In this document: piece by piece, positions 515 to 34,834 of the stretch
How the letters are laid out: each line of letters begins with the position of its first letter
Numbering within the stretch: the stretch's first letter is position 1
Assembly (NCBI GenBank): GCA_016841245.1
Contig: JAENZN010000021.1
Location: 1-64,000 of the forward strand
Direction of reading: 5' to 3'
DNA: 64,000 bases
Origin: Syntrophomonas sp.
Lineage (GTDB): Bacteria > Bacillota > Syntrophomonadia > Syntrophomonadales > Syntrophomonadaceae
The notes under the pieces: model-generated
The model's database searches: none
What the model saw: the letters and a program-made list of their open reading frames with translations, nothing else
What the model was told of the DNA's origin: nothing
Program-made: the position numbers and the translations under genes

Positions 515-865
515 CTATGCCTGGTTTTTATGACCGGACATATTGCTCATAATGTCCGGAATCATTTCTGCGATTTTGTCTATGGAACCCCGGTTGGTTA
601 AAGGCATTACACTTACTTCATCATCTTTAATGACTATCAATGCACTGGGAGAAATTCTGCCCCCGGCTCCTGAACCTCCACCAGTTCCATCCATACCCTT
701 GGGGTCCCTTCCTGAACCGCCACCGTTACCAGCACCAAAAGCAACGCTGATTACCGGGATGAGGGTAATGCTGCCTACTTGAATTGCTTCACCAAATACC
801 GTTTCAGTCTTAAAAAACTTTTCCAATTGTTCGAATAAAGCATTGATGTTTTGAGTTAAATCCAT
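515..865 (-). CDS. GerW/YtfJ-family sporulation protein
   Basis: This 116-residue protein has the GerW (YtfJ) pattern: a conserved N-terminal part (FKTETVFGEAIQVGSITLIP), a long Gly-rich loop at about residues 44-69, and a C-terminal segment with ISPSALIVIKDDEVSV. In Bacillus the family is made in the forespore and is needed for spore germination. The start has a strong site (AAAGGAGG) seven bases upstream. It follows the DUF2953 gene, the same pairing as ytfI-ytfJ in Bacillus. It also has its own ECF-type promoter overlapping the end of that gene, so its expression is probably tied to the sigma factor encoded at 2011-2583. Family call confident; role in this species inferred. Confidence 0.88.
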   Translation of the reverse strand: MDLTQNINALFEQLEKFFKTETVFGEAIQVGSITLIPVISVAFGAGNGGGSGRDPKGMDGTGGGSGAGGRISPSALIVIKDDEVSVMPLTNRGSIDKIAEMIPDIMSNMSGHKNQA

Positions 866-907: not shown

Positions 908-935
908 ATATACCCGCTGTCATTAAAAAGGTTGC
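908..935 (-). promoter_or_regulatory. ECF-type promoter for gerW
   Basis: Minus strand: a -35 element GCAACC (935-930) followed by TTTTT, 14 bases of spacing, then GGGTATAT (915-908) and AAAATAGG. The same -35 and -10 with the same spacing occur before the sigma factor gene at 2639-2612. GCAACC-type -35 boxes are common for ECF sigma factors. It overlaps the stop codon of the DUF2953 gene and leaves a leader of roughly 35 bases before gerW. Confidence 0.7.
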
Positions 936-1582
936 ACTGCAGGCTGCTTAACAGGTTTTTTGTTTTTCCTTACTGCTGACAGGAATCGCCAGGTTGATGC
1001 TTGAAAAACAAACTTTATTAAATACCAAAGTAATAATGCTAGAGTAATGGAACCGACAATCTCCAGATATATTTCCAAGTAATCCTGATCCCATACTGGA
1101 TTCAAGTTTATAGTGTAAGTATCGTTCATCCTGCCCAGTAAATAACAGCAGGGCAGAACCCAGGCAGTGATCTCAGGTTCATAGAAGCCATAGCTGCCGT
1201 TGATGATAATGTCATCTGGTTTGAATGCTGCCAGGAGATTCTTAAACAGTTTCCAGATAGTGATCTGAAGTCTATTTTCTAAAAAACTCTGCAAAATTGT
1301 GAATCCCGCAAAAGTTTTATTTTGATTTCTATCAGGGCTAATCTCTTTCCTCGACCTTGGTCGATTTCGCACCGGCCAGGATATACCTAAAAATTTAAAC
1401 CGCAGCATATTTATATCGGTTGAAGGTTTTAACTCACATTTATACAGGAAGCCTGACCAAATCTTGAAAGAATATTTCAGTCTGTCTTGATATTGAGCAT
1501 TTATGGTGTATTTAAGAGGAATGAACAAAATCATCAATATTAAAATTATGACCACCAGCAGTAAAGCTAAAATAATATACAT
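923..1582 (-). CDS. DUF2953 domain membrane protein (YtfI-like)
   Basis: The 219-residue protein starts with a hydrophobic helix (about residues 1-22), has a middle region with the WPVRNRPRSRK and PDDIIINGSYGFYEPE segments seen in DUF2953 proteins, and a second hydrophobic segment near residues 177-195. Function is unknown. The family is usually found directly before gerW/ytfJ in spore formers, as here. It lies 8 bases downstream of the anti-sigma factor gene with an AGGTAGGTG site, so it is probably co-transcribed with the sigma and anti-sigma genes. A sporulation or envelope role is inferred only from context. Confidence 0.8.
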   Translation of the reverse strand: MYIILALLLVVIILILMILFIPLKYTINAQYQDRLKYSFKIWSGFLYKCELKPSTDINMLRFKFLGISWPVRNRPRSRKEISPDRNQNKTFAGFTILQSFLENRLQITIWKLFKNLLAAFKPDDIIINGSYGFYEPEITAWVLPCCYLLGRMNDTYTINLNPVWDQDYLEIYLEIVGSITLALLLWYLIKFVFQASTWRFLSAVRKNKKPVKQPAVQPF

Positions 1583-1590
1583 CCAGGCAC

Positions 1591-2007
1591 CTACCTTTTT
1601 AGCGATATTATTTTACGTATGTCCAGTTTTTTACCCACATAGTTTCTGGTATTGTTCCCCGCAGTCTTGATTAGATTGGCCCCAGGCAGGAATTGCATAT
1701 AATTTACCGCCAGTTTCATTGAAGAGGTCTGAATTCTATATACATCCGCCAGAGAAGCATTATCCTGCAAGGATTCTAATTCTTCAAAACAGTGATCATA
1801 AGTATTTTTCCGTAATTTGGCCAATTTATGATGGGGTATATTAATATGCTCATGAAAACGAAGATCCCAGTCCAATATCTTCAACTGGTTTAATTCCCGT
1901 CTGCACTCGGGACATGTTTTAAGGTGTTCTTCCAGGAGCTCAGCTTCCAGTACATTTAGTTCCCGGTCCAAGTACTCATGCAGTAATTCTCTATTAATTT
2001 CACACAC
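1591..2007 (-). CDS. Soluble zinc-finger anti-sigma factor
   Basis: The 138-residue protein carries the ZAS motif H-x3-C-x2-C (His28, Cys32, Cys35) within an N-terminal helical region typical of anti-sigma factors (zf-HC2). No transmembrane helix is visible after it, unlike RsiW-type proteins, so it should act in the cytoplasm, perhaps as a redox or zinc sensor like RsrA. It starts with GTG six bases after GGAGGTG, and begins right after the sigma factor stop codon, indicating translational coupling. Binding to the upstream-encoded sigma factor is inferred from gene order. Confidence 0.85.
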   Translation of the reverse strand: MCEINRELLHEYLDRELNVLEAELLEEHLKTCPECRRELNQLKILDWDLRFHEHINIPHHKLAKLRKNTYDHCFEELESLQDNASLADVYRIQTSSMKLAVNYMQFLPGANLIKTAGNNTRNYVGKKLDIRKIISLKR

Positions 2008-2010
2008 TTA

Positions 2011-2583
2011 TTACACCTCCAGCAGCCCAGAGCTTTCCAGCCTTTTTTTAAGCATATTCCTTGCCCGGCACAGATTGCTTTTTACTGTACCCACAGGTTG
2101 ATCCAGGTCGGATGCTATTTCCTTATAGCTCATTTCCTCAACATATCTCAGGGTTAAAACCATTCTATAAGAATCGGGCAGTTCCAAGATTGCTTCATCA
2201 ATAATTCTTTTCATATCTTTTGCTGCTGCGTCTTTTTCTATATTAGTATGAGAATCAATAACATTGATCAAGTCTGGTTTATTAAAATCTAGATTATCCA
2301 GAGCGGCGTGAATATGCTTTTGGTGATCACGTTCATAGTTCAAACAGGTATTAACAGCAATTCTTTTTAGCCAGGGCCAAAAAGATCTTGATTCATCAAA
2401 AGTACTTATTGAACGAAAAACTTTGATAAATACCTCCTGCATTATATCCATGCTGCTCTCGTGATTTCTGGCATAACTGAAACATAGTCTATACAATTGA
2501 CCTTCATAAGAGCTCAGCAATATATCAAAAGCATCTCGTTCCATGTTTTTGCATCTGCGGATAAGATTGATCGAAATGTCCAT
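2011..2583 (-). CDS. ECF-family RNA polymerase sigma factor
   Basis: The protein (190 residues from ATG at 2583) has sigma region 2 (FDILLSSYEGQLYRLCFSYA, DIMQEVFIKVFR, FWPWLKRIAVNTCLNY) and region 4 (LPDSYRMVLTLRYVEEMSYK, then a helix-turn-helix ending GTVKSNLCRARNMLKKRL). An earlier in-frame GTG exists at 2604. I prefer ATG at 2583 because it has AAAAGGAAA at good spacing and because the promoter at 2612-2639 would start the transcript near 2604. The sigma factor is followed by its probable anti-sigma factor. The identical promoter motif upstream suggests autoregulation. Confidence 0.9.
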   Translation of the reverse strand: MDISINLIRRCKNMERDAFDILLSSYEGQLYRLCFSYARNHESSMDIMQEVFIKVFRSISTFDESRSFWPWLKRIAVNTCLNYERDHQKHIHAALDNLDFNKPDLINVIDSHTNIEKDAAAKDMKRIIDEAILELPDSYRMVLTLRYVEEMSYKEIASDLDQPVGTVKSNLCRARNMLKKRLESSGLLEV

Positions 2584-2611
2584 AGCCAATTTCCTTTTTA
2601 TCACCTATTTA

Positions 2612-2639
2612 ATATACCCTTGAGAATCAAAAAGGTTGC
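2612..2639 (-). promoter_or_regulatory. ECF-type promoter of the sigma factor operon
   Basis: Minus strand: GCAACC (2639-2634) plus TTTTT, 14 bases between the boxes, and GGGTATAT (2619-2612) followed by TAAATAGG. It matches the gerW promoter at 935-908 in both boxes, spacing and the start-site region, which argues for one sigma factor reading both, most simply the one encoded here. Confidence 0.72.
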
Positions 2640-2832
2640 AATTATCTATATTATGGTCAAACATCGTGGGAAATAAGTCATTTAGCACCTTGGAGCATGT
2701 TAACGAGAATAGATTAAAACTTGAATCCAGATTTAAATATAATATTCTTATGCATTGTTAACAATAGTGTCGGTAATTACCATTTAAAGGTATCCAATTT
2801 AGATATAAAGGTGATAACAGCAAATACCAGCT

Positions 2833-2861: not shown

Positions 2862-2884
2862 TAAATATAATATAATAATATTAT

Positions 2885-3035
2885 AAGGTGGGCGCCGAGG
2901 TCTTTTATCATAAGGCGCGGGGGAACCGAAATTTGGGGCGAATTCCTGGGATGATCATAGAGATTCCGGGATAGGGCTGACCCGAGTCCGAGCCCGACAG
3001 CTAACCCCGTAGGCGAAACGGGCTATCAGGTCGAG
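2885..3035 (+). promoter_or_regulatory. Cyclic di-AMP riboswitch (ydaO/yuaA type)
   Basis: The leader contains the conserved blocks of the ydaO motif in order: GCGGGGGAACCGAAA (near 2917), GGGGCGAATTCC (near 2935), a GGG(A)TAGGGCTGA segment, then CCGAGTCCGAGCCCG and CAGCTAACCCCGTAGGC (2980-3014). These riboswitches bind c-di-AMP and usually turn off osmolyte and potassium transport genes. Here it lies directly before a glycine-betaine-type ABC transporter operon, the expected regulatory target. Identified from remembered consensus blocks, not a covariance search. Confidence 0.88.
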
Positions 3036-3186: not shown

Positions 3187-4260
3187 ATGCAAAAAATTAG
3201 AAAACCACTGAGGAACTCGAGAGTTGGGGTGATTTCCTTTACTGTCGTGCTGTCTTTTTGTCTGCTGGTGGCCGGATGCGGTGGAGCAGGCAGTGAAGAA
3301 CAGGAGGGCAATAATAACACTGTTGAGAAACCGGTACTGGTTATGGCTGATGTTAGTTGGGACAGCGTTAAAGTTCACAACCGCATCGCAGGTTTTATTA
3401 TCGAGAAAGGGTACGGTTATCCGGAATGCGAATATGTTTTCTGCGAAACGCTTCCAGCTCTGCAGGGACTGCAGTATGGGGATTTAGACATCTATATGGA
3501 AGTATGGGCAGACAATATCATAGATGCCTGGAATGCAGCTCTGGAAGAGGGTACGGTAAAGGACTTGGGTTCCAATTTTCCCGATGCACCCCAGGGCTGG
3601 TATGTGCCAACCTATATGATTACTGGAGATCCGGACAGGGGTATAGAAGCAGTAGCCCCGGATCTGAAATCAGTCAGCGACCTGCCGAAATACCAGGAAC
3701 TGTTTAAGGACCCTGAAGTTCCAACCAAAGGGCGTTTTTACAACAGTCCTCCGGGCTGGAAATGTACCGAGATAAATGAATATAAATTTGCAGCTTATGG
3801 TTTGAATGATACCTTTAATCTATTTAGCAGCGGTTCAGATACAGCTCTGGCTGCATCTATGGCTACCGCTTATGAAAAAGGAGAACCATGGGTGGGGTAT
3901 TACTGGGAACCTACCTGGGTGATGGGTAAACTTGATATGACTCTCCTGGAGGAACCGGTTTATGATGAATCCCTGTGGTCGGCAGATGGTGGTTATGCCT
4001 GTGCTTATCCGGCAGCCAAGGTATTGATCGGAATAAACAGTGAAATGGAAAACACTTCACCAGAGGTAATTGAATTTTTGAATAATTACGATACGACTCT
4101 GGGGCAGAACAATGATTTCCTGGCTTTTATGATGGATAATGACGGGGATGTAGAAAAAGCCGCCATCTACTTTTTGCGGACCTACCCGGAGGTATGGAAA
4201 TCATGGGTACCTGAAGATGTGGCAAACAAGGTGGAAGCAGTACTCGAAGGGGTGGACTAA
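3187..4260 (+). CDS. Glycine betaine/proline-type ABC transporter, substrate-binding lipoprotein
   Basis: This 357-residue protein has a lipoprotein signal ending in LVAGC (lipidated Cys31), then an OpuAC/ProX-type domain (DVSWDSVKVHNRIAGF near the N-terminus, QYGDLDIYMEVWADN, ending with RTYPEVWKSWVPEDVANKV). It should capture a quaternary ammonium osmolyte such as glycine betaine outside the membrane and deliver it to the permease encoded two genes downstream. Start ATG follows AAGGAGG. Exact substrate (betaine, proline betaine, choline) cannot be read from the sequence. Control by the c-di-AMP riboswitch fits osmoprotectant import. Confidence 0.87.
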   Translation: MQKIRKPLRNSRVGVISFTVVLSFCLLVAGCGGAGSEEQEGNNNTVEKPVLVMADVSWDSVKVHNRIAGFIIEKGYGYPECEYVFCETLPALQGLQYGDLDIYMEVWADNIIDAWNAALEEGTVKDLGSNFPDAPQGWYVPTYMITGDPDRGIEAVAPDLKSVSDLPKYQELFKDPEVPTKGRFYNSPPGWKCTEINEYKFAAYGLNDTFNLFSSGSDTALAASMATAYEKGEPWVGYYWEPTWVMGKLDMTLLEEPVYDESLWSADGGYACAYPAAKVLIGINSEMENTSPEVIEFLNNYDTTLGQNNDFLAFMMDNDGDVEKAAIYFLRTYPEVWKSWVPEDVANKVEAVLEGVD

Positions 4261-4261
4261 A

Positions 4262-5182
4262 TTGGATAGCAATTCCGAAACATATATTCTGGAGGTTGAA
4301 AACCTGTGGAAGGTGTTTGCAAAAGACAAAATAGAATGTAATCTATATGATGCTGCAGCGGTAGGAAAGCTGGAAGCTGCGGGTGGAGTTGTGGCCGTAC
4401 GGGATATTTCTTTTAAAATCAAACGGGGAGAGGTTTTCGTAATTATGGGTCTGTCCGGAAGCGGCAAATCAACCTTGATACGATGTATACCCCGGCTGAT
4501 TGATCCCAGCTCCGGTAGGATAATGATGAATGGTGATAATGTTTCGGAAATGGATCAAGAGCAGTTGACCGAATTTCGCCGTACCAAAGCGGCCATGGTT
4601 TTCCAGCATTACGGTCTGCTGCCTCACCGCACAGTTCTGGAAAATGTGTCCTTTGGACTTAAACTGCGTGGTGTGGAACAAAAAGACCGAGAAATGAAAG
4701 CGGAACAGGCTATAGAACAGGTCGGGCTCAAGGGATGGGAAGCCCATTATCCCTCTCAGCTTTCAGGTGGCATGCAGCAGAGAGTTGGAATTGCCAGGGC
4801 TCTGGTACAGGAGACCGATTTGCTTCTTTTAGATGAACCCTTCAGCGGCCTGGATCCCCTTATACGCCGGGAGATGCAGGAGGAACTCCTGCGGCTGCAG
4901 GAGCAGCTGCATAAAACTATGGTCTTTGTTACTCATGACCTGAGTGAAGCGGTTCGTCTGGGTGACCGTATGGCGGTGATGAAAAGCGGTGAGTTTGTAC
5001 AGGAAGGAACTCCTCAGGAGATAATTATGCATCCGGCTGATGAATATGTACAGCGCTTTGTTCAGGATGAGCAAAAGATTGCGCTTATGATGGAACAAGA
5101 CAACAAGCCCAGCAATGTAAGAACCCTGCCGGTTCGTTCAGGCGGATGCAGTGATAAGGCTGTATCGGGTACCAGGAGGTGA
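4262..5182 (+). CDS. Glycine betaine/proline-type ABC transporter, ATPase
   Basis: The ATPase has Walker A GLSGSGKST (about residues 63-71), the signature LSGGMQQR, Walker B LLLLDEPFSGLD and the H-loop FVTHD. The N-terminal region before Walker A is long with VVAVRDISF, as in ProV/OpuAA. No pair of CBS domains follows, so the ionic-strength sensor of classical OpuAA is missing; the C-terminus is a short tail. I chose TTG at 4262, eight bases after GGGGTGG; a longer frame reaches back into the preceding gene. It would energise betaine uptake together with the flanking genes. Confidence 0.87.
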   Translation: MDSNSETYILEVENLWKVFAKDKIECNLYDAAAVGKLEAAGGVVAVRDISFKIKRGEVFVIMGLSGSGKSTLIRCIPRLIDPSSGRIMMNGDNVSEMDQEQLTEFRRTKAAMVFQHYGLLPHRTVLENVSFGLKLRGVEQKDREMKAEQAIEQVGLKGWEAHYPSQLSGGMQQRVGIARALVQETDLLLLDEPFSGLDPLIRREMQEELLRLQEQLHKTMVFVTHDLSEAVRLGDRMAVMKSGEFVQEGTPQEIIMHPADEYVQRFVQDEQKIALMMEQDNKPSNVRTLPVRSGGCSDKAVSGTRR

Positions 5183-5186
5183 AAAC

Positions 5187-6044
5187 ATGTTTCCGGAAGC
5201 ATTAGAATACCACGTAGCTCCGTATATCAGTAATTTTGTCAAATGGCTGCTGCATACTTGCGGCCCGGCCTTTGATGCCTTCAGCAACTCATTAATTACC
5301 ATTATGGTACAGATTGAGCATGGTCTTTTATTTATACCCTGGTGGTTATGGGCGATTGGAATAATGTTTCTGTCCTGGCGTATCACCAGGCACATTGGTA
5401 AAACCATCCTTCCCGCCGTGCTGCTCATGACGATAGGAATGCTGGGATTATGGGATGTTGCCATGGAGACCCTCTCAATAATTATTGTATCAGTTGTCCT
5501 GGCCTTAATCATTGGTATCCCTTCGGGTATCGCGATGGCGGTATCGAACCGGGTCAATACCGTATTTACGCCTATTCTGGATGCCATGCAAACTATGCCC
5601 AGCTTTGTATACCTTATCCCAGCCTTGATGCTCTTCCACCTGGGAAAAGTACCTGCAGTGGTGGCTACAGTTATTTATGCGGTGCCTCCGGTGCAGAGAC
5701 TTACTAATTTAGGTATAAGGCAGGTTTCTGAATCAGTGCAGGAAGCAGCTCTGGCATTTGGTGCTACTCCCTGGCAGTTAATGAAGGAAGTGCGTTTACC
5801 CCTGGCCATGCCATCTATACTGGCGGGAATCAACCAGACTACCATGATGGCTCTGGCGATGGTGGTAATTGCCAGTATGATTGGAGCTGGAGGTCTGGGC
5901 GAGAAAGTGCTGGTTGCCACCAACCGGATAGATGTAGGGGGAGGATTCGAAGCTGGATGGGCTATTGTGGTCCTGGCCATAATTATTGATCGCCTCAGTC
6001 AGGGAGCGGCCGGTAAATTCGATAATACTAATATACAGAGGTAG
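5187..6044 (+). CDS. Glycine betaine/proline-type ABC transporter, permease
   Basis: This 285-residue integral membrane protein has several hydrophobic helices and the cytoplasmic EAA loop that contacts the ATPase (EAALAFGATPWQLMKEVRLP), as in ProW/OpuAB. ATG at 5187 follows AGGAGGTG, which overlaps the ATPase stop, so translation is coupled. It is the last gene of the riboswitch-controlled operon, ended by the hairpin at 6051-6089. The N-terminus (about 60 residues before the transport domain) is longer than in minimal permeases and includes an extra hydrophobic stretch. Confidence 0.87.
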   Translation: MFPEALEYHVAPYISNFVKWLLHTCGPAFDAFSNSLITIMVQIEHGLLFIPWWLWAIGIMFLSWRITRHIGKTILPAVLLMTIGMLGLWDVAMETLSIIIVSVVLALIIGIPSGIAMAVSNRVNTVFTPILDAMQTMPSFVYLIPALMLFHLGKVPAVVATVIYAVPPVQRLTNLGIRQVSESVQEAALAFGATPWQLMKEVRLPLAMPSILAGINQTTMMALAMVVIASMIGAGGLGEKVLVATNRIDVGGGFEAGWAIVVLAIIIDRLSQGAAGKFDNTNIQR

Positions 6045-6050
6045 AGTTTA

Positions 6051-6089
6051 AAAAGCCTGTTGGCCATATTTTTGGTCAACAGGCTTTTC
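6051..6089 (+). terminator. Bidirectional intrinsic terminator
   Basis: Perfect stem AAAAGCCTGTTG (6051-6062) with CAACAGGCTTTT (6077-6088), loop of 14 bases, T-run on the plus strand and A-run on the other side. It separates the convergent transporter operon and flagellar rod genes. Confidence 0.8.
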
Positions 6090-6107
6090 TTGTTAGTACC
6101 GGGGATA

Positions 6108-6467
6108 CTATTCCTTTTCCACCAACTGTGAACTGAGCTGTTTATATAGAAGATCTGCTATACCCAGCGAACCAGTTTTACTCATATTTTTAGCATATTC
6201 ATCATACAGCATGGATTCATAAGTTTCGGTGGCAAAACCACGCTCTATTAAATCACTGTGGGAGATGCAAGCTCTCATTGAATCCAGAACCTTGTTTATA
6301 AATACACTTTCTAACTGTTGACAGGATTCATATAATTTTTTCTGGTCATCACTTTGAATAGCACTGTTTAAGGCCCGGTCAAAACTAGTCATCTCTGAAG
6401 TTTCTTGGGCAACGGAAGTACTGGTCTGAGCCGTTTGCATGTTTATCATGTTGGTATCGATCATCAT
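6108..6467 (-). CDS. Flagellar rod-binding protein, FlgJ N-terminal-like
   Basis: The 119-residue protein matches the rod-binding domain of FlgJ: ESCQQLESVFINKVLDSMRA followed by the YESMLYDEYAKNMSKTGSLG signature and an amphipathic end. It lacks the C-terminal muramidase domain of proteobacterial FlgJ, as is usual in Firmicutes. It should help assemble the flagellar rod through the peptidoglycan. ATG at 6467 follows AAGGAGC. It lies 24 bases after flgG and is probably co-transcribed with it. Confidence 0.85.
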   Translation of the reverse strand: MMIDTNMINMQTAQTSTSVAQETSEMTSFDRALNSAIQSDDQKKLYESCQQLESVFINKVLDSMRACISHSDLIERGFATETYESMLYDEYAKNMSKTGSLGIADLLYKQLSSQLVEKE

Positions 6468-6491
6468 ATTCTTAAGCTCCTTAATGAAAAT

Positions 6492-7277
6492 TTATCTGCG
6501 CAGATTGGCCGCCGTCTGCAGCATCTCGTCTGAAGCGGTAATAACTTTCGAATTCATCTCATAAGCACGCTGAGCAGATATTAAATCAACCATTTCATCA
6601 ACGATTTGTACATTGGATAATTCCAAGTATCCGGATTGCAGGTACACCGACGAATCATCATCAGGATCCCAGTCTTCAGGATCTCCAGAGCTAGCTGATG
6701 CTGCATAAAGGTTGCCGCCAAGTTTTTCTAATCCGTTCAGATTCATAAACTTAACCAGTTCTATTTGACCAGCTTCCTCAGCTTCATCGCCATCAGAAGT
6801 CGTATATGTTACGATTCCGTCTTTGGCGATGGCAATATCGGTTGCATTTTCGTCAATAGAATCTGTACCCACCACTATGTAACCATCAGAAGTGCAGAGA
6901 TTTCCCTCTGAATCAATTTTAAAAGATCCATCTCGGGTATAAAGTTCTTCGTCATATCCCGGCACTTCAACTTTAAAGAAAGCCTGACCGATAATAGCTA
7001 CATCTGTGGAATTGTCAGTTTCCTGCAAGCTTCCCTGTCTAAATGACGTAGATATAGCAGAAGGTTTTACCCCGAGACCAACCGCAACTCCTACGGGGTC
7101 ATTAGTATTAGTACCTGAAATTGGACGATTAATTTGCTGATACAGAAGATCCTGAAATTCTGCCCTTTGTTTTTTATAGGAAGTTGTATTAACGTTGGAA
7201 ATATTATTGGCGATGGTATCAACATTTAACTGCTGGGCATACATTCCTGTACTGGCAGTATAGAGAGACCTCATCAT
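6492..7277 (-). CDS. flgG: Flagellar basal-body distal rod protein FlgG
   Basis: The 261-residue protein starts MMRSLYTASTGMYAQQLNVD and has the ANNISNVNTTSYKKQR motif of flagellar rod/hook proteins, a middle domain with QAFFKVE and YTRDGSFKID, and the C-terminal MVDLISAQRAYEMNSKVI signature. Length and N-terminus fit FlgG, the distal rod subunit outside the membrane. An Asp-rich loop (PEDWDPDDDSS) is a local insertion. Start ATG follows AAGGAGGATC. Other flagellar genes are not in the window, so this is a small detached rod cluster. Confidence 0.9.
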   Translation of the reverse strand: MMRSLYTASTGMYAQQLNVDTIANNISNVNTTSYKKQRAEFQDLLYQQINRPISGTNTNDPVGVAVGLGVKPSAISTSFRQGSLQETDNSTDVAIIGQAFFKVEVPGYDEELYTRDGSFKIDSEGNLCTSDGYIVVGTDSIDENATDIAIAKDGIVTYTTSDGDEAEEAGQIELVKFMNLNGLEKLGGNLYAASASSGDPEDWDPDDDSSVYLQSGYLELSNVQIVDEMVDLISAQRAYEMNSKVITASDEMLQTAANLRR

Positions 7278-23843: not shown

Positions 23844-23889
23844 TATAAGGATTTTTAAGGATTTAGAAAATATTATCAAAAATAATTAC

Positions 23890-24125
23890 TGTGAACGGGA
23901 CAGTAAACGAAAGCGGTCGCTATCAGCGAGTTGGGGACGGTGTAAGCCCGGCAGCGAGTTTTGGTTGAAGATCACCCGGGAGTTTCTAAACCGAATATAA
24001 TAGATAAGGTTTGGACGTCACTCGCGTTAAGAGTATGGAGTGGTACCTGGTTAAGTCGGGTACTACAAGGGTGGTACCGCGGAAAATGCTTTTCGTCCCT
24101 TGGGGATGGAAAGTGTTTTTTAATT
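23890..24125 (+). promoter_or_regulatory. T-box leader (isoleucine) of ileS
   Basis: Stem I elements are visible (AGCGAGTTGGGGACGGTG, then TAAGCCCGGCAGCGAG), followed by GAAG-ATC-ACCC at 23967-23977, where ATC (23971-23973) is the likely isoleucine specifier. The T-box sequence AGGGTGGTACCGCGG is at 24068-24082. A terminator hairpin follows (CTTTTCGTCCC ... GGGGATGGAAAG, then TTTTTT to 24121). Uncharged tRNA-Ile should pair with both the specifier and the T-box and allow ileS transcription. Position before ileS and the specifier codon agree. Confidence 0.95.
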
Positions 24126-30145: not shown

Positions 30146-30327
30146 TTTGCAACATTACTATTAAATTTGGTGTATATTAGATACAGGCAGAGATTGAGAG
30201 ACGAGGAAATAGTTCTATAATATCTGTTTTTTGCTTCCTGGATAGATATGCAGAACCTTGCGGCTAAATTCAGCACGCTGCAGCACAATAACCAGGCCAT
30301 TTGATGATTAAGGAGGCTTATTGCACC

Positions 30328-31524
30328 ATGAAAGTCGGAATATTTACAGACAGCTATAAGCCGTATACCAGCGGCGTAGTTACGTCTATTGCTACTTTTA
30401 AAGAAGAATTAAATAAACTCGGGCATGAAGTGTTTATATTTGCACCCAGCTATCCCGATTATGAGGATAAAGAAGCAGATGTATATCGTTATTTTTCCAT
30501 GACTTCTCCTACGAATCCTGACTTTGCACTTGCTATACCGGTTTATCCGGGTATGCATATGCTGCTGAAAAAATTAGATCTGGATATTATTCATGTTCAT
30601 TCGCCCTTTACCATGGGACGAGTGGGTATGCACTGGGCTAACCGTCAGCATGTACCATTGATATTCACCTATCACACACTGTATGACCAGTATGCCCATT
30701 ATGTGCCCGTAGCACAGGAACTGGTCAAGGATATGGCTCTGCGCTTCAGCAACAACTTCTGCAACAGGTGTGACCATATAGTAGTACCCAGTAAGGAAAT
30801 ACAGAGACTGCTGTATAGTTACGAAATAAGTACTCCGATTACGGTAATTCCCACCGGGGTACCGCTGCACAAATTCCAGGGAATAAGAGAAAACTGGTTA
30901 AGAAACAACTACGATATACCGCGGGAAAACAAAATCCTGCTTTTCGTTGGCCGATTAACCCGGGAGAAGAATCTGGAGTATTTGATCGAAGCTTTTGACC
31001 TGGTTAAAATGAAGATGCCTAATACTACCCTGGTTTTAACTGCTCAAGGTCCGTTGGAAAATGAGTTAAAACAGCTGGTGATAGACCTGGGACTGGAATT
31101 AGATATTGATGTAATATTTACTGGTGCTCAGCCTTTTGATACTCTGGTAGATATTTACTATTCTGCCGACCTGTTTGTCTTTTCTTCCGTAACCGAAACC
31201 CAGGGATTAGTACTTATCGAGGCTATGGCTGCCGGCCTTCCCGTAGTAGCGGTGAGGGCCTATGGGGTACGGGATATGGTGGATAACGGTATAGACGGTA
31301 TTCTAACCGAATATAATAAAGAAGAATTTGCCAGCGCCATAAGTGAAATTTTGTCTGATGAAAAATTATACAACTACTATAAAAAGAATGCCTATAAGAA
31401 AGCAAATAGTCTTTCCTCCAGCAATATGGCTCTCAAGCTGGAAAGGGTTTATGAAGAATTGCTGGTCAGCAGTCCCCCCAGAAGAACCAAAATGCAGGAG
31501 TTTATTTCTCGTATTGCTCCATAA
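30328..31524 (+). CDS. Glycosyltransferase family 4 protein, diacylglycerol glucosyltransferase-like
   Basis: 398 residues starting MKVGIFTDSYKPYTSGVVTS, with GHEVFIFAPS, VHSPFTMGRVG, YHTLYDQYAHYV, the second Rossmann domain starting ILLFVGRLTREKNLEYLIEA, and the E-x7-E motif (ETQGLVLIEAMAAGLP). It resembles enzymes that add glucose to diacylglycerol (glycolipid and lipoteichoic acid anchor synthesis) at the cytoplasmic membrane face; other lipid acceptors are possible. ATG 30328 follows AAGGAGG; an earlier in-frame start precedes that site. Confidence 0.87.
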   Translation: MKVGIFTDSYKPYTSGVVTSIATFKEELNKLGHEVFIFAPSYPDYEDKEADVYRYFSMTSPTNPDFALAIPVYPGMHMLLKKLDLDIIHVHSPFTMGRVGMHWANRQHVPLIFTYHTLYDQYAHYVPVAQELVKDMALRFSNNFCNRCDHIVVPSKEIQRLLYSYEISTPITVIPTGVPLHKFQGIRENWLRNNYDIPRENKILLFVGRLTREKNLEYLIEAFDLVKMKMPNTTLVLTAQGPLENELKQLVIDLGLELDIDVIFTGAQPFDTLVDIYYSADLFVFSSVTETQGLVLIEAMAAGLPVVAVRAYGVRDMVDNGIDGILTEYNKEEFASAISEILSDEKLYNYYKKNAYKKANSLSSSNMALKLERVYEELLVSSPPRRTKMQEFISRIAP

Positions 31525-31738: not shown

Positions 31739-31897
31739 TCACTCATGAGCTCTAGCGAACATCAAACTGTAGTCCTGTGGGCTTCTGTAATCGGCCGGGC
31801 ATCTTGCCGACTTTTATTAGTCTGGCATCTATGGTAAATTAATTAATAGCTAAATGCTCAAAATGAACCTAATATGCAAATATGGAAGTGTGAGAGA

Positions 31898-33277
31898 TTG
31901 AGAAAAATACTGGCGATAACTGCAGGAAAAATAATTATATTCTTAAGCCGTATGCTGGGGAATCAGGGTACCGATTTTCCGGGGCGGGCAGCCAGAAAAA
32001 TATATCCCGAAATTCTAAAAATTCTGGCCGCCAACATCCGGGAAGAGATATTTATTGTGACTGGTACTAATGGCAAGACTACGACTACCAACATGATAGC
32101 CTCCATTCTTAGAGAAAAGGGTTATTCACTGGTTCACAATACCGCCGGGGCTAATATGCTGACCGGTATTACCACTGCTTTTATTGAGGCATCTGATTTA
32201 TTGGGCCGACAGAAATTTGATTATGCTCTGCTGGAGGTTGATGAAGCCTTTGTTCCCCTGCTTATCAAAGAAGCCCGGCCCAGGGTAGTAATAATTACTA
32301 ATTTCTTCCGGGATCAGCTGGACAGGTATGGGGAACTTGATCATACCATCAATCTTATAAAAGACGGAGTGCGAAATACCGATATTGAACTGATTTTAAA
32401 CGGTGATGATCCGCTGGTGAGTCATTTTCATAATGATACCGGCTTACACTGCTGGTACTATGGTTTTGAGGATACCATTTATGATGCTCTGGAAAGCATG
32501 GAAAGCCGAGAGGGCAGATATTGTGTTTTCTGTGGTCATGAACTTGATTATCGAAGGTATCATTATGCTCAGCTGGGACAGTTCAGGTGTCCGCAGTGTG
32601 ATAACCATAATCCTGATTTTAATTTCACCGCCAATAAGCTTAAGATGAACCCATTTATCAAAATGAATGTTAATGATCTGGTTATTCAAAGCCCCTATCA
32701 AGGGTTCTACAATGCGTATAATATTCTGGCGGCAGTATCAGCAGCACGACTGGTAGGAATAGAAGACGGCATCATCCAAAGCGCCATAGCAGGGTATCGC
32801 CCCCGGGCTGGGCGCATGGAAAACTTTATTATTAACGGTAGGCGAACTGTTCTGATACTGGTCAAGAACCCCACTGGTCTCAACCAGACCTTATCAACCC
32901 TGCTTTACGATACCAAAAGCAAGAACCTCTTCATAGCATTGAATGATAATGCTGCCGACGGCCGGGACATATCCTGGATCTGGGACGCGGATGTGGAGAT
33001 GCTGGCCAGTGAAAAGGCTCGGATTAGCCATGTAGTATGTTCAGGTCAGAGGAGCGGTGATATAGCGGTAAGAATCAAATACAGCGGAATAGATTCAGGT
33101 ATTATTAATATAAAAAGTAACCTGGCCGAGGGTATTGAATTAGCAGTTGGCGGACCGGGAGAAGTTAGCTATATCCTATCCACTTATACGGCCTTGTTTG
33201 AGTGCCAGAAAATATTGAAAAAACTCCAGAAGGATGAAAAATCCGGAGTGGCTGGACAGCGACAGCTTCAGGCGTAG
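31898..33277 (+). CDS. murT: MurT-like lipid II isoglutaminyl synthase, Mur ligase subunit
   Basis: About 459 residues: P-loop VTGTNGKTTTTNMIA, LLEVDEAFVP, ITNFFRDQLDRYGELDHT, the Cys4 zinc ribbon typical of MurT (CVFCGHEL...FRCPQC), YNAYNILAAVSAARL, and the C-terminal DUF1727 region (LILVKNPTGLNQTLSTL, FIALNDNAADGRDISWIWD). With GatD it amidates D-Glu of lipid II to D-isoglutamine in the cytoplasm. I use TTG 31898 (GGAAGTGTGAGAG upstream and family-like start); an ATG at 31874 is possible. Unusually, two small genes lie between it and gatD. Confidence 0.9.
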   Translation: MRKILAITAGKIIIFLSRMLGNQGTDFPGRAARKIYPEILKILAANIREEIFIVTGTNGKTTTTNMIASILREKGYSLVHNTAGANMLTGITTAFIEASDLLGRQKFDYALLEVDEAFVPLLIKEARPRVVIITNFFRDQLDRYGELDHTINLIKDGVRNTDIELILNGDDPLVSHFHNDTGLHCWYYGFEDTIYDALESMESREGRYCVFCGHELDYRRYHYAQLGQFRCPQCDNHNPDFNFTANKLKMNPFIKMNVNDLVIQSPYQGFYNAYNILAAVSAARLVGIEDGIIQSAIAGYRPRAGRMENFIINGRRTVLILVKNPTGLNQTLSTLLYDTKSKNLFIALNDNAADGRDISWIWDADVEMLASEKARISHVVCSGQRSGDIAVRIKYSGIDSGIINIKSNLAEGIELAVGGPGEVSYILSTYTALFECQKILKKLQKDEKSGVAGQRQLQA

Positions 33278-33800: not shown

Positions 33801-34070
33801 ATGGTCAAGGAAACAACGGTGATAATAACCCTGCCTATGTTTATGACATATTTCTGCAGCCTGAGCGGCAGCAAGAAGGTACAGCTGCTGCCGGTTATAA
33901 TCAGTGGAATAGTATTGGCGGGTGCGGTGATTACATGGTTGATATATCCTCCCGCTCGTGAGATAGCTCAAAGCACAGGAGTTGGGGCTCTGGTAGCTCT
34001 AGCCTGCTGTTTATTGACGCGGGCCTTGATCAAGGAAGTACATAAAATATCAGGTTCATTTAATAGATGA
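33801..34070 (+). CDS. Small membrane protein of unknown function
   Basis: 89 residues with three hydrophobic segments (ITLPMFMTYFCSL, LLPVIISGIVLAGAVITWLI, GVGALVALACCLLTRAL) and a basic C-terminus. No family recognised. ATG 33801 is seven bases after GGGAGGG (ATG 33798 is also possible). Its stop overlaps an ATG in the gatD frame (ATGA), so the genes from murT to gatD are probably one operon. Confidence 0.55.
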   Translation: MVKETTVIITLPMFMTYFCSLSGSKKVQLLPVIISGIVLAGAVITWLIYPPAREIAQSTGVGALVALACCLLTRALIKEVHKISGSFNR

Positions 34071-34099
34071 AATTATCTTTTTGCTGGGAGATGAAAGAC

Positions 34100-34834
34100 A
34101 TGGCTGGTTTTGTAATCGCCCATATGTATCCGGATCTGTTAAACCTTTATGGAGATAGAGGTAACCTGCTGTGTCTGCAGCAGAGGATGCGCTGGCACGG
34201 CCACGACTGCAGGATAAAAAATATCCGTCTGGGAGAAAAAATAGAATATGCCGGCATCGATATGATCTTCATGGGTGGAGGTTCAGACCGGGAACAGGGG
34301 CTGGTATACCGTGATCTGGTGGGACGTTCGGATGAATTCATGGCCCATATTGAGGATGGCATGCCGGTTCTGTGTATTTGCGGAGCTTATCAGCTCTTGG
34401 GAATATCTTATATAGCTGTTGATGGGCAGGTTATGGAGGGTTTGAAATTTTTTAATTATCTTACCCGGGGAGCAAAGAATCGCTTGATAGGCAATGTCTT
34501 AATAAAGGCCTGTATAGAAGGAGAAGAAATAAGTGTGGTAGGATTTGAAAACCATGGCGGAAGGACTTGCTTCGAAGATGATTCTTTACAGCCTTTCGGT
34601 ATGGTTATCAAAGGCTATGGCAACAATGGGGAAGATAAGAAAGAAGGCATTAAATATAACAATCTTATTGGTACCTATTTGCATGGGCCGCTGCTTCCTA
34701 AGAATCCGGGAATAGCAGATTATTATCTGAAGACCATGGCCTCACGGCAGGGGATTGAATTAAACAGCAGATTAGATGATTATATAGAGAATATGGCTCA
34801 TGAACAGGTGAAAAAGAAACTGCTGGCTACTTGA
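34100..34834 (+). CDS. gatD: GatD-like lipid II isoglutaminyl synthase, glutaminase subunit
   Basis: 244 residues of the CobB/CobQ-type class I amidotransferase fold: IAHMYPDLLNLYGDRGN, FMGGGSDREQGLVYRDL, nucleophile Cys in PVLCICGAYQLLG, GFENHGGRT, and catalytic His in GTYLHGPLLPKNP. It supplies ammonia to MurT. ATG 34100 has GGGAG nine bases upstream and gives the normal N-terminus; an in-frame ATG at 34067 overlaps the previous stop and would add 11 residues. Confidence 0.9.
   Translation: MAGFVIAHMYPDLLNLYGDRGNLLCLQQRMRWHGHDCRIKNIRLGEKIEYAGIDMIFMGGGSDREQGLVYRDLVGRSDEFMAHIEDGMPVLCICGAYQLLGISYIAVDGQVMEGLKFFNYLTRGAKNRLIGNVLIKACIEGEEISVVGFENHGGRTCFEDDSLQPFGMVIKGYGNNGEDKKEGIKYNNLIGTYLHGPLLPKNPGIADYYLKTMASRQGIELNSRLDDYIENMAHEQVKKKLLAT

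Follow-up and report, generated by a model that had tools for sequence, protein, structure and literature searches.

Does an ECF sigma factor in Syntrophomonas directly control a spore germination gene? The question is raised by a stretch of 64,000 nucleotides (the window, analysed over its whole length), in which two near-identical sites lie on the minus strand, one before an ECF sigma gene and the other before a gene of the GerW family. A sequence-only reading of this DNA had proposed that the sigma factor, together with a soluble zinc anti-sigma factor, directly controls gerW, taken to be a spore germination protein, and that such a link is unusual for an ECF factor. We followed up this proposal in the window, in its genome (G000; 3.9 Mb in 56 contigs) and in relatives, where genomes are numbered with G, contigs with C and loci with L. 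The features on which the argument turns are these:

2612-2640, minus strand: candidate ECF-type promoter upstream of sigma, TGCAACC...GGGTATAT; a like site precedes sigma in 25/25 clusters inspected
2011-2583, minus strand: ECF sigma factor, ~190 aa from ATG 2583 (PF04542 and PF08281 above cut-off; start chosen from orthologue starts)
1591-2007, minus strand: anti-sigma factor with a zinc-binding zf-HC2 domain, predicted soluble (PF13490, 38.1 bits)
923-1582, minus strand: DUF2953-like membrane protein, YtfI-like (profile match to DUF2953; hydrophobic N-terminal segment)
908-936, minus strand: second candidate ECF-type promoter, operon-internal, spanning the end of the DUF2953-like gene
515-865, minus strand: GerW-family paralogue (GerW2), 116 aa (PF09579, 81.5 bits)
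30148-30176, plus strand: third candidate ECF-type site, upstream of the GT4 gene; conserved in 5/5 genus genomes examined
30328-31524, plus strand: GT4 glycosyltransferase, possibly a glucosyl-diacylglycerol synthase (PF00534, PF13439)

An apparent operon headed by an ECF sigma gene

The four minus-strand genes look like an operon in the order ECF sigma, anti-sigma, DUF2953-like and GerW2, with co-transcription suggested by gene spacing. In the list of open reading frames, the sigma gene starts at GTG 2604, about at the expected transcript start, and most aligned sigma orthologues start at or near MDIS, so that ATG 2583 is the more likely start. Pfam content (PF04542 and PF08281/PF04545 above cut-off, and no further family) corresponds to sigma regions 2 and 4 only. 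SigW ranks among the top NCBIfam models for the protein (127.9 bits, under the cut-off of 209), and the sigma factor of G001, a member of the window's genus, is 79% identical.

We found that the description of the anti-sigma factor as a soluble zinc protein held up at the level of prediction, since the zinc motif is kept and no strongly hydrophobic segment occurs in any of 14 orthologues, among which the top 19-residue hydrophobicity mean is 1.27, too low for a membrane helix. The H-x3-C-x2-C motif is present, C2, H28, C32 and C35 are invariant in 14/14 proteins, and a zf-HC2 protein lies immediately downstream of sigma in all 14 genome clusters. This invariant Cys-His-Cys-Cys set recalls RsrA, to whose model the window protein has a weak match (24.2 bits; cut-off, 62.5). 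Redox anti-sigma factors of the RsrA type possess an extra conserved switch cysteine, whereas no additional invariant cysteine is available in the window anti-sigma as a switch partner: three cysteines are invariant across the 14 proteins, and C73 is not general among them. Without an RsrA-like switch cysteine, redox sensing in exactly the RsrA manner appears unlikely.

Our cluster search queried 151 genomes with the anti-sigma and 61 with PF09579, and 27 loci were retrieved. The order sigma, anti-sigma, DUF2953-like, GerW2 is kept in 13 of the 27, which with the window gives 14 genomes; in 11 more, which were scanned for the site, GerW2 is present with no sigma linked to it, and three (G012, G030 and G032) have no DUF2953-like match. 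Among L098-L105 and L114-L116, ten loci carry the DUF2953-like gene and GerW2 without a linked ECF sigma, and L101 carries GerW2 alone. When loci were ranked by sigma alignment, at least 14 of the best 80 named loci had sigma beside a DUF2953-like gene, at least 12 of them with GerW2. L139, L147 and L153 repeat genomes already counted, leaving 11 new loci, three of them incomplete; L149 and L150 are cut by a contig end (L150 is a weak match as well), and L164 has a shortened sigma frame and no anti-sigma match. In all there are at least 25 clusters, some incomplete, and their hosts include Pelotomaculum, an Alicyclobacillaceae MAG and MAGs labelled Nitrospirae and Armatimonadetes.

Two RNA elements were also seen in the window. 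A c-di-AMP riboswitch (2883-3029, plus strand; RF00379, 75.3 bits) lies between sigma and the rightward ORF 3187-4260, which, reading by eye, we take to encode a betaine-type substrate-binding protein followed by ABC genes, and a T-box leader (RF00230, 133.8 bits) is found at 23882-24103 on the plus strand.

The sites are rare in the genome

The window contains two copies of the string GCAACC-TTTTT-N9-GGGTATAT, at 908-935 and 2612-2639 on the minus strand, and 100 dinucleotide-preserving shuffles contained none. As originally noticed, both copies have 14 bases from GCAACC to GGGTATAT and then AAATAGG. The equal spacing proved to be particular to G000, the gerW2 site being one base longer in G001, G003, G004 and G009, and conservation of AAATAGG in relatives is not strict. 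Because the second site spans the end of the DUF2953-like gene, it is internal to the apparent four-gene operon. The further claim that the window holds no other copy is correct for the strict string but not for the looser pattern TGCAACN{15,17}GKGTATA, which has a third match at 30148-30176 on the plus strand. At the three window sites the -10 reads GGTAT or TGTAT, and none has CGT. A consensus scan returned 14 sigma-70 promoter-like matches against 10.1 expected and two terminator-like matches against 2.4 expected.

The sequence-only reading had reasoned that a motif frequent throughout the genome would speak against a link to this sigma factor, and genome-wide pattern searches found no such frequency. 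With GCAACCTTTTTN9GGGTATAT at fixed spacing and up to three mismatches, G000 yielded nine matches, of which the two window sites are the only exact ones; the next best are three two-mismatch matches, all within ORFs, and the remaining four carry three mismatches. Across seven genomes, TGCAACN{15,17}GKGTATA gave 15 matches, four before sigma, six before gerW2 (two of these, in G009, lie either side of an N run and are probably one site) and five before GT4, with none outside these three places and one in the reversed control. The G009 locus L061 carries its gerW2 promoter region twice around the N run (about 2016-2394), probably an assembly artefact. The pattern TGCAACN{15,17}GNGTAT had 15 matches in G000 and G003, six at the three places and nine within ORFs (control, 0); GCAACCTTN{11,13}GGTATA had four in seven genomes, all upstream of sigma or gerW2 (control, 1); and TGCAACNTN{12,15}GNGTAT had 21 in eight genomes, 16 at the three places and five within ORFs (control, 2). 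No fourth intergenic site was found with the five patterns used, which may miss weaker sites, and the three intergenic sites found in G000 are all inside the window.

The sites are conserved in relatives

Inspection of the 25 clusters revealed a box before sigma in every one, reading TGCAAC in nine, CGCAAC in G009 and TGAAAC in 15. At the -10, 18 clusters have GTAT, six have GTA followed by a different base (G048, G058, G062, L143, L148 and L164) and L151 has neither. The looser of these sites would not stand alone, and the argument is carried by exactness and position. The G146 sigma gene (L063, about 4842-6965) is interrupted: a stretch with a transposase-like gene splits the promoter and first codons from the remaining sigma frame, which puts the site ~2.1 kb away from that frame. 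A second TGAAAC site in G062 (G062:C52:1558-1583; L293) lies beside a second anti-sigma match and belongs either to a second cluster or to a mixed assembly.

Ten TGCAAC-group clusters have a gap before gerW2, and a site lies there in nine of them (G000, G001, G003, G004, G009, G048, G108, G146 and L140), the exception being L164. TGAAAC-group clusters have overlapping or almost adjoining genes, and no internal site was seen in the six inspected. A TGAAAC-type pattern applied to six TGAAAC-group genomes had five matches, all at sigma copies, and is weak evidence by itself because the reversed control had three and no match was found in G035 or G060. Residue 176 of the sigma factor is S or N in the nine TGCAAC-group sigmas whose region 4 could be read and T in 14 TGAAAC-group sigmas (24 sigmas were entered, with G035 left out and L164 too short to count). 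This pattern would fit co-evolution of sigma and promoter, but since many other columns split the groups equally it may reflect shared ancestry alone.

We also considered that a different sigma factor, or a group of overlapping ECF factors, may recognize the sites, with the window sigma as one customer among them. Overlapping promoter recognition is described for the ECF factors of B. subtilis (PMC8144471), and two genomes, G002 and G019, carry a site without a detected orthologous sigma. In G002 the GT4 site is present and sigma, anti-sigma and GerW2 were not detected, but contig C11 ends ~0.3 kb short of the place that the cluster occupies in G004, so this genome neither supports nor refutes the link between sigma and site. 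G019 is a case similar in kind: the exact site lies upstream of its DUF2953-like gene, and the search for a sigma orthologue in this 73% complete assembly found a best match of only 33% identity. Among the 11 GerW2 loci without a sigma, the exact site is missing in ten, with one-mismatch matches in G014 and G027. Within G000, moreover, the exact site occurs only at the window sigma among 18 sigma-like matches, none of the 17 others being preceded by it and two (L018 and L023) having a one-mismatch match. We regard reading by another sigma factor as unlikely, and conclude from the sequence comparisons that both sites are conserved, ECF-type and nearly private to the window sigma factor.

The gerW-type gene of the window belongs to a separate clade

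We found that the gene described as a spore germination gene does not qualify for that name. Its product carries the PF09579 (Spore_YtfJ) domain above the Pfam cut-off but scores 53.9 bits against TIGR02874, the GerW equivalog model with a cut-off of 116.3. A canonical gerW elsewhere in G000 reaches 172.4 bits, above this cut-off; it follows a DUF2953 gene, and the genes after it we take, by eye, to be spmA and spmB. The genome-wide patterns found no ECF-type site on its contig, C34. In a tree of 55 proteins, one branch with support 100/100 splits 30 GerW2 rows from 25 canonical rows, in an analysis whose bootstrap is not fully settled and which includes three long rows (two GerW2, one canonical). 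By these comparisons the window gene is not the germination gene and is a member of a separate GerW-family clade, GerW2.

The DUF2953-like protein has no Pfam match at E <= 0.001, PF11167 included. Profile comparison with canonical DUF2953 proteins gave 97.2% probability (E 4.2e-11 over 180 columns), which points to a remote relationship. Together, the separate GerW2 clade and the remote DUF2953 relationship suggest that the pair in the window arose by an old duplication of DUF2953-GerW (YtfI-YtfJ). Comparison of the predicted structures of GerW2 (mean pLDDT 75.0) and of the DUF2953-like protein (mean pLDDT 78.4) with the PDB found nothing at E <= 0.001, nor did a sequence search of the PDB at E <= 0.1 find a relative of GerW2, and the models give no clue to function.

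GerW2 might still be a sporulation protein, made by an ECF factor that is active in sporulating cells. The genus has a canonical gerW, to whose family GerW2 belongs, and some genomes, such as G019, yield only a GerW2-type match; yet neither the site nor the operon holds a pointer to sporulation, and G019 is incomplete and therefore says little, which leaves this idea improbable in our judgement. We consider it very unlikely that the ECF sigma directly controls the spore germination protein GerW itself, normally a forespore gene. The Spore_YtfJ domain would speak for this, as would the placing of ytfJ in the sigma-F regulon in the core sporulation list of PMC3416734, but that listing concerns the canonical gene and not GerW2, and GerW2 falls under the equivalog cut-off and into its own clade, while the canonical gene lies elsewhere without the site. 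Direct control of the downstream gene by the sigma factor survives as the best inference, and the germination identity of that gene is lost with the TIGR02874 score and the clade. The alleged unusual link also dissolves, since GerW2 closes the sigma factor's own operon as its fourth gene, and ECF control of it is no surprising bridge to sporulation.

A third site precedes a glycosyltransferase gene

The third site lies directly past the stop (30145) of a DksA/YteA-like gene and ~150 bases upstream of GT4. It came to light with TGCAACNTN{12,15}GNGTAT and also fits TGCAACN{15,17}GKGTATA, which matched none of 100 window shuffles. In G000, G001, G002, G003 and G004 the GT4 site keeps TGCAAC and GTGTATATTA without change, while much of its spacer differs. 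Across 26 GT4 upstream regions the site occurs in five, all from the window's genus; G013, G022 and G025 have two-mismatch matches only, and G009 and G048, in which sigma is present, have no GT4 site. The GT4 match is missing in three of 28 genomes.

The best NCBIfam model for the GT4 protein is NF049988 (alpha-monoglucosyldiacylglycerol synthase), with 223 bits. Because this best score lies below the cut-off of 400, the identity of the enzyme is a lead only, and GT4 may be a glucosyl-diacylglycerol synthase, a maker of membrane glucolipid. PMC8144471 describes that loss of ugtP activates ECF factors in B. subtilis and that a heterologous monoglucosyl-diacylglycerol synthase suppresses this. 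Since glucolipid loss activates ECF factors there, it would be plausible for an ECF regulon to include an enzyme of this kind; ECF activity would be tied to glucolipids in both cases, but here the glycosyltransferase is itself a predicted direct ECF target.

Further observations were made around this gene. A leader block at 30220-30248 on the plus strand, ATATCTGTT..TTGCTTCCTGGAT.GATA, is more conserved than its surroundings in five genomes and is perhaps an RNA element; no Rfam family matched it at gathering score. Genes of the MurT and GatD types (lipid II amidation) are found at 31874-33277 and 34067-34834 on the plus strand, after a ~350-base gap downstream of GT4.

That the sites are chance matches or a small repeat and no promoters can practically be dismissed, for although T runs and AT-rich spacers slightly raise the rate of chance matches, neither the strict string nor the looser pattern appeared in any shuffle, the sites are kept in relatives despite altered spacers, and each is followed closely by a gene in the same orientation.

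A proposed small regulon

We think it quite likely that these elements form an autoregulated ECF switch with an extra internal promoter and a third target. In this switch, the soluble zinc anti-sigma would hold the sigma factor in the absence of stress, as is usual in its family, until some signal frees it and the three promoters fire. The first promoter would amplify the four-gene operon that sigma itself heads (sigma, anti-sigma, DUF2953-like and GerW2), the operon-internal second promoter would add extra GerW2, and the third would drive GT4 and so possibly membrane glucolipid synthesis. The cargo of the operon would be the old duplicate of the DUF2953-GerW pair, whose other copy stands in the usual sporulation neighbourhood, and we propose that this duplicate works outside germination, at the membrane of cells that are growing or under stress. 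Altogether, the locus probably encodes a very small autoregulated regulon for membrane or envelope homeostasis that includes a duplicated DUF2953-GerW module. The membrane or envelope role is a weaker proposal than the switch, and is suggested by the model match of GT4 and by the hydrophobic stretch in the DUF2953-like protein.

PMC8103513 characterizes ECF factors, in 157 groups, by sigma regions 2 and 4 only, a neighbouring anti-sigma, an AAC -35 and positive autoregulation, and gives CGT in the -10 as an older part of the definition that was later relaxed. The window sigma has regions 2 and 4, a neighbouring anti-sigma and AAC in the -35, with no CGT in the -10, and a conserved site upstream of sigma would provide for autoregulation. 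In having regions 2 and 4 only, an adjoining anti-sigma gene and an AAC-type -35, the locus is like the autoregulated operons of the SigW-RsiW type, and a profile search of the PDB with the anti-sigma finds RsiW (E 1.3e-05). RsiW, however, is a membrane protein, whereas the window anti-sigma is predicted to be soluble; the -10 is GTAT and not CGT, the cargo is DUF2953-GerW, and there is an extra internal promoter. With the canonical YtfI-YtfJ pair the operon shares the two families and their order, but its GerW member falls into a separate clade, and the pair is linked to an ECF factor and has no spm neighbours. We conclude that this is a new ECF system, ordinary in mechanism and unusual in cargo, rather than a case of ECF control over a germination gene.

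To our knowledge, the molecular role of GerW/YtfJ proteins is unclear. Literature searches for Syntrophomonas with extracytoplasmic function and for Spore_YtfJ found no paper. One speculative idea, which we find possible but doubtful, is that DUF2953-GerW is a general two-part membrane device duplicated in Bacillota, with a spore copy and an ECF-driven copy to which one genus has added a glucolipid-type glycosyltransferase; the shared job of both copies, and hence that of GerW in germination, would be to tune membrane lipids or envelope state.

The superfamily name gerW can suggest a false link to sporulation, as it did at this locus. A GerW paralogue that occurs in many relatives and is tied to an ECF factor, with a DUF2953-like partner and, in one genus, a possible glycolipid enzyme, would offer a testable handle on GerW outside spores and, because the predicted regulon is tiny and its sites are well defined, a tractable ECF system in syntrophic Clostridia.
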